From positions 1-64,000 of the forward strand of contig JAOUOS010000014.1 of NCBI GenBank assembly GCA_029880285.1: DNA of 64,000 nt, given 5' to 3'. The position numbers and the translations under genes are program-made. Source of the stretch: Spirochaetia bacterium (lineage in GTDB: Bacteria; Spirochaetota; Leptospiria; Turneriellales; JAOUOS01). Shown one piece after another: positions 1,427-29,274 of the stretch; positions within the stretch are counted from its first letter, which is position 1, and each line of letters starts with the position of its first letter. The notes beneath the pieces are model-generated. The model was not told the DNA's origin. It was given only the letters and a program-made list of their open reading frames with translations, and searched no databases.

Positions 1427-2430
1427 GAATTAATAAATATATGACGTATACATCATCAGAAAAAGCAGAAATAATCAAGATTGTAGAAGAATCAAAAGTC
1501 AGTATAAGCCAAACATTAAGAGAGCTAAAAGTTAGCAGAAGTTCTTTTTATGATTGGTACCATAAGTATAATGAATATGGTATTGAAGGTCTTAAAAAGA
1601 AAACTAAAACACCTCAAAAGTTCTGGAATGCAATACCAGAGTGGGAAAAAGATAGGGTGGTTAAAGCAACTCGTAAATATCCAGAGAAATCATGTCGTGA
1701 AATAGCTTTTCATATTACGGATGAAATGGGCTATTTTATAAGTGAATCAAGCGTTTACAGGATATTGAGAGAGCGAGAAATTATTACTACACCTGTTTTT
1801 CATGTTATATCAGCCAAAGATAAATTTCAAAATCCGACTACGGCTCCTAACCAGTTATGGCAAAGCGATTTTACTTATTTGAAAGTTTTAAATTGGGGAT
1901 GGTATTATCTTTGTACGGTTATGGATGATTATTCCAGATATATTCTTTCATGGAAGTTATGTCGCACGATGTCGACTGATGATGTAAAACAGACTCTTGA
2001 TATAGCGCGAAAGAATTCTGGGTTTAATAATGTTAAAGTTAAACATAGACTTCGCCTTTTAAGTGACAATGGGCCATGCTACATCTCTAAAGAGCTCAGT
2101 AATTATCTTGCAAAGCATGAAATAAAACATACTCGCGGAAAACCATTTCATCCGCAGACACAAGGCAAGATCGAGCGGTATCATCGTTCTATGAAAAATC
2201 TTCTCTTGCTTGATAATTATTATACACCACTAGAACTTGAGAAGCAAATTGAGAGATGGGTAGAATATTATAATCACCATCGATATCATGAAGCTATTAA
2301 TAATATCAAACCTGTTGATAAATACTTTTCAAGAGAAAGTGTAATTCAAAAAAAACGTAGACTTCTAAAAATAAAAACTATAAAAAATAGAAAACAAATT
2401 AATTTAAATTATTATGCAAAAACAAGTTAA
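1423..2430 (+). CDS. IS3-family transposase OrfB (DDE integrase)
   Basis: The 335-residue protein starts with a second helix-turn-helix (SISQTLRELKVSRSSFYDWY), then an HTH_21-like region. The rve-type catalytic core follows: the first Asp in QLWQSDFTYLKV, the second in LLSDNGPCY, and the Glu in HPQTQGKIERYHRSMK. All three DDE residues are present and the frame is uninterrupted, so the element may still be active. The protein ends with NYYAKTS inside the inner edge of the right inverted repeat, as expected for a compact insertion sequence. Confidence 0.92.
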   Translation: MRINKYMTYTSSEKAEIIKIVEESKVSISQTLRELKVSRSSFYDWYHKYNEYGIEGLKKKTKTPQKFWNAIPEWEKDRVVKATRKYPEKSCREIAFHITDEMGYFISESSVYRILREREIITTPVFHVISAKDKFQNPTTAPNQLWQSDFTYLKVLNWGWYYLCTVMDDYSRYILSWKLCRTMSTDDVKQTLDIARKNSGFNNVKVKHRLRLLSDNGPCYISKELSNYLAKHEIKHTRGKPFHPQTQGKIERYHRSMKNLLLLDNYYTPLELEKQIERWVEYYNHHRYHEAINNIKPVDKYFSRESVIQKKRRLLKIKTIKNRKQINLNYYAKTS

Positions 2431-2475
2431 AAAGTGCAACTTAAATAATTACACTATTTGTCCAAATACGTTTGA
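2428..2475 (-). repeat. Right terminal inverted repeat of the IS3 element
   Basis: The reverse complement matches 1003-1050 in register. The innermost bases overlap the last codon and stop of orfB. Confidence 0.7.
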
Positions 2476-2781
2476 CAACATACAAGTTTATTTTTTTATT
2501 TTTCTATTATCTTCAGAAAAAGGTTTTTTTGCCATTGAAAATATTTGGGTAGTACAAATGCTTATGATTATTAAAAATTTTAGGTTTGTTAATGATGAGT
2601 TCATTATATTATTTTAGAGCAATTACCGAAGAAAAACATCTATTAAAATATAATACCTATCAACAATAATGTAAACAGGTAAAATATAGATTTATACCGG
2701 GAATTTTATAAAAAATTCGTCAAAAAATCTTTATTAATATATTATGATTAAGTAATATTTGTAAATAAGGAGAAATATTGA
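2476..2781. other. Gene-free stretch between IS3 and the haem lipoprotein
   Basis: About 300 bases of very AT-rich sequence. I see no credible coding frame, hairpin or RNA. The region next to 2782 contains a possible ribosome binding site (aaggagaaata) for the downstream gene. Confidence 0.5.
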
Positions 2782-27154: not shown

Positions 27155-27183
27155 TTGTCATAATGAATTGAATTTACGATAGT
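27155..27183 (+). promoter_or_regulatory. Candidate sigma-70 promoter of the dUTPase gene
   Basis: TTGTCA (27155-27160) matches TTGACA at five of six positions. After a 17-base spacer, GATAGT (27178-27183) matches TATAAT at four of six. The GTG start is seven bases after the -10 box, so the transcript would be essentially leaderless. Confidence 0.4.
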
Positions 27184-27190
27184 AAAATTT

Positions 27191-27643
27191 GTGTCAAAAA
27201 TTTCTATTAATTTTGTAAAATTAGACAACTGTGTACACACTCCTGAAAAAACAAGTGAAGGAGCTGCCTGCTATGATATTAGAGCCTTTTTAGAAAAGCC
27301 CGTCATATTAAAACCCAGAGAAAGATTTTCGATTCCAACGGGAATTAAAGTGCAAATTCCTGTCGGATTTATGCTTTCAGTAAGACCTAGATCGGGTTTA
27401 GCCATAAAAGAAGGTCTTACATTGATAAATTCGCCCGGCACAATTGATTCTGATTTTAGGGGAGAGATTCATATTCTAGTAATTAATTTAGGCGAAAGTG
27501 AGATTAAAATTTCAAATGAAGAAAGAATTGCTCAGCTTGTATTAGAAAAAACTTATGAAATAAAATGGGAAGTTAAAAAAGAAGATGATTTATCAAGTAC
27601 TAAAAGAGGCGAGGGCGGCTTTGGATCAACGGGAAAAAAATAA
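27191..27643 (+). CDS. dut: dUTP diphosphatase
   Basis: The 150-residue trimeric-type dUTPase contains motif 1 GAACYDIRAF, motif 2 RPRSGLAI, motif 3 INSPGTIDSDFRGEI, motif 4 RIAQLVL, and the C-terminal glycine-rich motif 5 RGEGGFGSTG. It hydrolyses dUTP to dUMP and pyrophosphate, keeping uracil out of DNA and supplying dUMP. The start is GTG 27191, with no Shine-Dalgarno but a promoter-like sequence immediately upstream. The RNase J gene follows after 14 bases. Confidence 0.97.
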   Translation: MSKISINFVKLDNCVHTPEKTSEGAACYDIRAFLEKPVILKPRERFSIPTGIKVQIPVGFMLSVRPRSGLAIKEGLTLINSPGTIDSDFRGEIHILVINLGESEIKISNEERIAQLVLEKTYEIKWEVKKEDDLSSTKRGEGGFGSTGKK

Positions 27644-27645
27644 AA

Positions 27646-27651
27646 AAGAGG
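27646..27651 (+). promoter_or_regulatory. Ribosome binding site that decides the ATT start of RNase J
   Basis: AAGAGG lies six bases before ATT 27658, an ideal spacing, directly after the dUTPase stop. No other start codon in this frame is near it. Confidence 0.55.
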
Positions 27652-27657
27652 TTAAAT

Positions 27658-29274
27658 ATTAAATTATTAAAACAAAAAAACAAATTATATGCCGCTTTTG
27701 GCGGTGGAATAGGAAAGTTTGGAACCAACTTTTCTATTTTTTCTATAAATGAAAGCTGTATTTGGATAGATGTTGGTATTGGTTTTCCTAATAAGCATAT
27801 TCCAGGGGTTTCAAAAACTCTGCCTAATTTAGAGCTGGCTGAAAAGTTTGCTCCTTCTGCTATAATTTTAACGCACGCGCATGAAGATCATGTGGGGGCC
27901 TTGCCTTATTTGTATAAACTAATACCAGAAAAAACACCTCTTTTTTTAAGTTCTTTTACGGCAGAACTTGTTAAAAATAAATTAAAAGATCATGGCTTTT
28001 CTTTAGATAAGTTTCAAGTAAGAATTATTGACGAAAATATGATTTTTCAGCATGGCGATTTTCAGGTTCAAATATTTTTTATGCCCCATTCTATACCGCA
28101 GGCCTTTTCAGTAGGTCTTACTTTAAAAAAGCCTGATTTGAAAATATTTTATACCGGCGATTTTAAGACTAAAGGGGCAGAAAAAGAATTTAAAGAAAAT
28201 GATTTAAAAAAGTTTGGTCCTGTTGATATGCTTTTTTGTGATTCTACCGGCGCTCTGTTTACAGGATATTCAGAAAATGAATTAAATATAATAAAAAACT
28301 TAGAAAAAACTATTAAAGAATGGGAGGGCAGAGTTTTTGTAACAACTTTTTCATCTCATATTCAAAGAATAAAAGCATTGTTTCAAATTGCTGAAAAAAC
28401 AGGTCGGCAAATTGGAATTCTTGGCTATTCTATGAAAAATCATTTGAAAGCAGCTTTTGAATCAGACAATTTTGATATTCCGCCTGAAAAAATAAAAAAC
28501 CCGTCAGTTAAAAATGAAAAAGTTTTATGGCTTATCGCAGGGTGTCAGGCTGAAGATGGTTCATCATTAAATAAACTTTCTACAAAAGAAATTGAAAGGT
28601 TTAATATAAACGAAAATGATTTAATAATTTACTCTGCCAGTATGATACCGGGTAATGAAGAATCAATATATGAGGCTTTAAATGAATTCTCTGAGAAAGG
28701 AGCTTATATAAAAGGACTTTCGGGCGAAAAATTACATGCTTCTGGCCATGGCAGGCAGGAAGATATTTTAAATTTATTTCAGATGCTTTCTCCTAAGAAT
28801 GTAATTCCAATTCATGGAGATCCGCTTCATTTTTATGCTTTCCGTGATTTAATCAATCAAAGCAGAAAAAAAATATCGCTTCATATAGTAAAAACCGGAG
28901 GAATATATGAGCTTGAAAAAGAAGTAAATGAAGTACTTTCTGTAAATTCAAGTTTGTATTTTGTTGAAAACGGAGAAATTCATTCAGATATTGTTTTATA
29001 TCATAGAAGAAGAGAATTATCTAAAGATGGTATTTGTAACCTTGTAATAGATAAAAAAGATTATAATCTTAAAAATTTAAATTATGTGGGCTGCATATCT
29101 GAAGAGATGTACCATAATAAAGTGGAAAATCTTAAAATTGAGATTTCTTTTCAGTTAGAAATAATAGCAAAGTTAGAAACAGATAAAAAAGAAAAAAGAA
29201 TAAAAGAAAAAGTTTATAAAATAAACAAACTTTTATTAAAAAAAGCACCTTTTGTAAATATTCTTTGGGTATAA
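27658..29274 (+). CDS. Ribonuclease J-type metallo-beta-lactamase/beta-CASP nuclease, ATT start
   Basis: From ATT 27658 the product is 538 residues, normal for RNase J. The metal-binding motif H73-A-H75-E-D77-H78 (ILTHAHEDHVG) and N-terminal GGGIGKFGTNF are only present when translation begins upstream of the first ATG/GTG at 27892. The frame is open from a stop at about 27600 and contains no ATG, GTG or TTG before 27892. AAGAGG (27646-27651) is six bases upstream of ATT. Later motifs are typical: MPHSIPQAF, YTGDFK, SASMIPGNEE, and HASGHGRQEDILNLFQMLSPKNVIPIHGD. RNase J is a 5'-3' exonuclease and endonuclease in RNA decay. A frameshift or sequencing error is the alternative to ATT initiation. 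Confidence 0.85.
   Translation: MKLLKQKNKLYAAFGGGIGKFGTNFSIFSINESCIWIDVGIGFPNKHIPGVSKTLPNLELAEKFAPSAIILTHAHEDHVGALPYLYKLIPEKTPLFLSSFTAELVKNKLKDHGFSLDKFQVRIIDENMIFQHGDFQVQIFFMPHSIPQAFSVGLTLKKPDLKIFYTGDFKTKGAEKEFKENDLKKFGPVDMLFCDSTGALFTGYSENELNIIKNLEKTIKEWEGRVFVTTFSSHIQRIKALFQIAEKTGRQIGILGYSMKNHLKAAFESDNFDIPPEKIKNPSVKNEKVLWLIAGCQAEDGSSLNKLSTKEIERFNINENDLIIYSASMIPGNEESIYEALNEFSEKGAYIKGLSGEKLHASGHGRQEDILNLFQMLSPKNVIPIHGDPLHFYAFRDLINQSRKKISLHIVKTGGIYELEKEVNEVLSVNSSLYFVENGEIHSDIVLYHRRRELSKDGICNLVIDKKDYNLKNLNYVGCISEEMYHNKVENLKIEISFQLEIIAKLETDKKEKRIKEKVYKINKLLLKKAPFVNILWV

Follow-up and report, generated by a model that had tools for sequence, protein, structure and literature searches.

A probable AUU start codon for RNase J after apparent loss of a dut/rnj overlap in a spirochaete

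AUU start codons are known in bacteria and are rare. Both infC and pcnB of Escherichia coli start at AUU, and the AUU of infC serves the autoregulation of IF3. The original prediction for the locus described here took such starts to be known mainly from infC, which is too narrow a view, as they have also been reported for pcnB, Borrelia pncA, Yersinia pestis rcsD and Staphylococcus aureus cvfC1. In Borrelia burgdorferi, PncA (BBE22) is initiated at AUU, and for that reason the protein is truncated in its database entry (PMC13398362). In Y. pestis rcsD, AUU initiation takes place downstream of a frameshift and was tested by changing the AUU to GGU and to AUG (PMC10191623). PMC5559785 also refers to ATT starts in Deinococcus deserti and Xanthomonas.

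The window, which is the whole 64,000-nucleotide stretch of DNA that was analyzed, contains an RNase J gene (rnj) with a candidate AUU start directly behind the dUTPase gene dut. It corresponds to contig 17 of the genome of an uncultured spirochaete (G000; 3.3 Mb, 102 contigs), which was compared within an order-wide set of 18 genomes. G001, a sister genus, is the only other compared genome of the same family, and 16 order members lie outside the family. The features of the locus are as follows.

27191 to 27643, + strand: dut (dUTPase), the upstream gene, above the cut-offs of NCBIfam NF001862 and TIGR00576 and matching Pfam dUTPase; stop codon TAA at 27641-27643.
27621 to 27662, + strand: putative remnant of the ancestral rnj start, a TTG in dut motif V opening a 13-codon frame, LDQREKNKKEVKY, whose TAA at 27660-27662 overlaps the ATT.
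27634 to 27647, + strand: A7-T-A6 run, where a one-base change or an assembly error would explain the frame difference from relatives; it holds the in-frame A_AAA_AAA of dut.
27646 to 27651, + strand: SD-like AAGAGG, read from the sequence and rare before ATT.
27658 to 27660, + strand: proposed start codon ATT (AUU), read from the sequence, with a parallel AAGAGG-6-ATT in an amidohydrolase gene.
27658 to 29274, + strand: rnj, encoding RNase J, 538 residues counted from the ATT, assigned by Pfam domains and structure matches.
27874 to 27891, + strand: HAHEDH, the catalytic metal-binding motif, invariant in a five-genome alignment except for its second residue (A or G).
27892 to 27894, + strand: GTG, the first canonical start codon of the rnj frame; its product would be without HAHEDH.

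The GTG at which dut itself starts has no SD and follows a promoter-like TTGTCA-17-GATAGT by a few bases (window 27155-27191); the dut mRNA may be leaderless.

Domains and structure matches identify the rnj product as a divergent RNase J. The Pfam domains RNase_J_b_CASP (PF22505, E 1.9e-28) and RMMBL (PF07521, E 1.5e-10) both score above their gathering thresholds, and the solved RNase J 3bk1, of the Thermus thermophilus type, matches with an E value of 3.5e-62 from residue 21 of the translated frame onward. The catalytic motif and the domain order are common to both proteins; HAHEDH aligns with THGHEDH of 3bk1 and conforms to the metallo-beta-lactamase HxHxDH motif. The divergence from known RNase J is seen in NCBIfam, where TIGR00649 is the best family at 269.6 bits, below its curated cut-off of 400.

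The rnj frame is open from 27604 to 29271, between a TAA at 27601-27603 and its own stop at 29272-29274. As originally predicted, no ATG, GTG or TTG precedes essential RNase J sequence: 96 sense codons without a canonical start separate the TAA from GTG 27892, which lies directly 3' of HAHEDH, so that a protein started there would lack the catalytic motif. Since solved RNase J structures match from their N-terminal strand onward, translation must begin at or before approximately 27700. The AAGAGG described in the same prediction is present and is followed by the spacer TTAAAT and ATT 27658. Among the near-cognate codons of the frame upstream of the conserved FGGG, this ATT is the only one with an SD match at 5 to 8 nt. 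The combination is rare by chance: across approximately 130,000 ATT triplets in 1.7 Mb of the window genome, AAGAGG lies exactly 6 nt upstream of 0.028%, and GAGG lies 5 to 7 nt upstream of 0.34%. SD spacings in this genome peak at 4 to 7 nt, and the 6 nt of rnj fall within that peak. We consider it very probable that rnj has a genuine AUU start at 27658.

There is good support for the proposed initiation, part of it being the recurrence of the same AAGAGG-6-ATT arrangement in an unrelated gene of two genera. A codon-model scan of approximately 1.6 Mb, about half of the window genome (1361 coding segments, 72 kb masked), placed rnj among only about five strong ORFs in which coding clearly begins before any ATG, GTG or TTG. 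The others were genes for an amidohydrolase, MnmE and an OmpH-like protein, and a frameshifted argS; most of the remaining "start-less" candidates were antisense shadows of real genes. The starts of the first three are listed here.

Amidohydrolase gene, start column of the order-wide alignment: ATT in L247 (G000), L248 (G001), L259 (G003) and L261 (G009); ATA in L250 (G014).
mnmE, L266, G000 contig 42 from 17607: ATA behind AAGAAGG, with no ATG, GTG or TTG at the start; ATG at the same column in five orthologues.
OmpH/Skp-like gene, L296, G000 contig 13 from 183748: ATT behind AGGT, with a signal peptide preceding the first canonical start; the support is weaker than for the other two.

In both genera of the family the amidohydrolase ATT stands 6 nt behind AAGAGG with no usable ATG, GTG or TTG (AAGAGGCAATTTATTAATATATTTCAG in the window genome, AAGAGGCAAAGTATTAATATTTTTCAA in G001), and ten orthologues have ATG at this column. 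In G003 and G009, which belong to another family, the ATT follows GGAGG. No canonical start follows the preceding stop codon in G003, whereas in G009 an ATG, four codons upstream of the ATT, overlaps the SD. In G014, which has ATA, an upstream TTG may be the start instead. Assembly error is a poor explanation for an ATT that recurs in several genomes. AUU initiation is thus very likely to be genuine in this lineage, and it is accordingly the simplest reading for rnj as well.

The arrangement of dut and rnj in the relatives suggests how the rare start arose. Every one of the 16 order members outside the family has rnj in the +1 frame with respect to dut. The open frame of rnj extends back into dut, where a TTG start candidate is found within the codons of dUTPase motif V (G004 also has an ATG two codons before the TTG). 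This TTG is located 24 to 28 codons ahead of the RNase J FGGG (SGGG or FAGG in three), and in many of these genomes the codons for the preceding RGEG supply the SD-like purine stretch. The FGSTG of motif V is encoded exactly as TTT GGT TCC ACA GGT (TTTGGTTCCACAGGT) in 10 of the 16 genomes (L005-L020; window 27605-27643), a codon combination with a probability of approximately 0.0004 under rnj codon usage in eight of these genomes. Shared ancestry contributes to these near-fixed codons, which would also fit selection on the second frame (M-V-P-Q-V). A conserved overlap with near-fixed synonymous codons suggests dual coding and coupled expression.

Both members of the window's family depart from this arrangement. 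The window keeps the TTG at 27621 with its SD, but a one-base shift of the rnj frame against the ancestral arrangement means that the frame opened by this TTG ends early, at TAA 27660-27662. In G001 the old TTG is destroyed (TTTCGG), stops interrupt the frame, and the sole canonical candidate for rnj is a TTG without an SD, 11 codons before FGGG. The window's ATT, 13 codons before FGGG, is close to that position. The overlapping start was thus lost in different ways in the two genomes, and the family appears to have abandoned it. The AUU itself is not kept in rnj orthologues, and none of them has, at the ATT position, the ATG that had been named as evidence against the prediction: G001 has a TTG candidate near it, and the 16 others start upstream inside dut, at the TTG (in one also ATG).

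From sequence, homology and recurrence we infer the following course of events. The ancestral rnj start would have been a UUG inside dUTPase motif V. The overlap would then have been lost in the family, by a one-base frame change in the window and by loss of the TTG together with in-frame stops in G001, and a new rnj start behind dut would have taken over. The acceptance of AUU and AUA as starts in several genes of the order may have made this change tolerable. In the present arrangement, AAGAGG 27646-27651 would pair with ribosomes arriving from the dut stop at 27641-27643 or newly recruited to the mRNA. Six bases further on, the usual initiator tRNA would decode the AUU, yielding a 538-residue RNase J that begins 13 residues ahead of the conserved FGGG. 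The gap of 14 nt between the dut stop and the ATT suggests translational coupling of rnj to dut. Reporters in S. aureus show reduced initiation at AUU (PMC13009471), so the AUU of rnj probably keeps RNase J at a low level.

The main rival to the AUU start is an assembly or sequencing indel at the A-runs beside the old TTG. The true genome would have one base fewer there, and rnj would start at the ancestral TTG 27621 in dut, which is intact together with its SD and lies 25 codons plus one base from FGGG, as against exactly 25 codons in G006. The single-copy argS of the window assembly, intact in G001, likewise shows an apparent frameshift at an A-run. This gene, the only argS found in the window genome (L235/L319, contig 49, approximately 2184-2771, minus strand; the A-run is short), represents either an assembly indel or real frameshifting. 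However, indel-like frameshifts in strong genes amount to about 1 per 1300 coding segments scanned, so that, a priori, an AUU start is far more likely than an indel inside the 40-nt junction; such an indel would leave AAGAGG-6-ATT as a coincidence, and G001 lost its overlapping start in another way. We therefore regard an indel as unlikely.

Alternatively, the frame difference could be real and bridged by recoding, either through slippage on the A-runs by ribosomes started at TTG 27621 or through a -1 shift at A_AAA_AAA 27634-27640 that would produce a dUTPase-RNase J fusion. The heptamer is in frame with dut and immediately precedes the dut stop, and a -1 shift there does enter the rnj frame. 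However, in-frame A_AAA_AAA is common in this AT-rich genome (1345 occurrences in 981 strong genes, 12 of which end with the heptamer), it is absent from G001, no stable structure lies downstream (fold z -0.91), and no dUTPase-RNase J fusion was found among the relatives, which together make recoding very unlikely. Slightly less credible again is another near-cognate start such as ATC 27625, which follows the old TTG by four bases and would use the ancestral SD in dut: it would give a leader of 24 residues, near the ancestral 25, and has GAGG 10 nt upstream, but this spacing is long for the genome, and AUC starts, unlike AUU starts, were not found elsewhere in the clade. A sequencing substitution at 27658 is possible for rnj and cannot account for the amidohydrolase ATT in several genomes.

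Beyond the AUU start of rnj, the other genes raise the possibility, which we advance only tentatively, that this spirochaete order has relaxed start-codon discrimination, with AUU and AUA forming a small but regular class of starts (rnj, the amidohydrolase gene across two families, mnmE and the OmpH-like chaperone gene). If so, database genes would be mis-started and starts could drift between ATG, ATT and ATA. The AUU and AUA starts occur in metabolic and tRNA-modification genes without obvious common regulation. The suggestion that rnj is regulated through its start codon in the manner of infC gained no specific support: in each of the 15 order genomes where infC was found, the gene has ATG where its start is expected, and its product IF3 has its full length. 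An altered initiation machinery was considered and rejected, with one initiator-type anticodon arm (GGGCTCATAACCC) in most order genomes, including the window's, alongside the full-length IF3; a 17-base initiator-tRNA pattern gave no match, its outer stem probably being too specific. Within the order genomes, all IF3s (L033, L305-L318) carry a G in the C-terminal domain at the residue that corresponds to E. coli R99. An RNA element was likewise rejected, as there was no Rfam match in the window and the fold z was that given above.

With rnj, an RNA-decay enzyme joins the short list of AUU-started bacterial genes. Relative to the open-access papers, three things are new: the gene concerned, the way in which its start would have arisen (through decay of the conserved dut/rnj overlap, which our comparison suggests as one origin of a rare start) and the amidohydrolase AUU kept across genera. 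The latter shows AUU starts persisting within a spirochaete lineage. With gene finders restricted to ATG, GTG and TTG, the RNase J of this locus would be annotated as an inactive protein with its active site cut off.

Among the described systems, infC and pcnB of E. coli resemble rnj in that they serve RNA metabolism or translation and have an SD ahead of their AUU. They differ in that E. coli infC uses its AUU for IF3 autoregulation, whereas the infC of the window genome starts with ATG. The pncA gene of B. burgdorferi is, like rnj, a spirochaete gene with an AUU start in which a conventional start would remove catalytic residues (PMC13398362). It is a different gene in a different order, and its AUU was proven genetically, biochemically and by structure (PMC13398362), whereas that of rnj is predicted from sequence. 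The Y. pestis rcsD-Hpt shares with rnj an AUU with a ribosome binding site used downstream of a frame change (PMC10191623), but there the AUU is the internal start of a short domain, whereas in rnj it would be the start of the whole enzyme.
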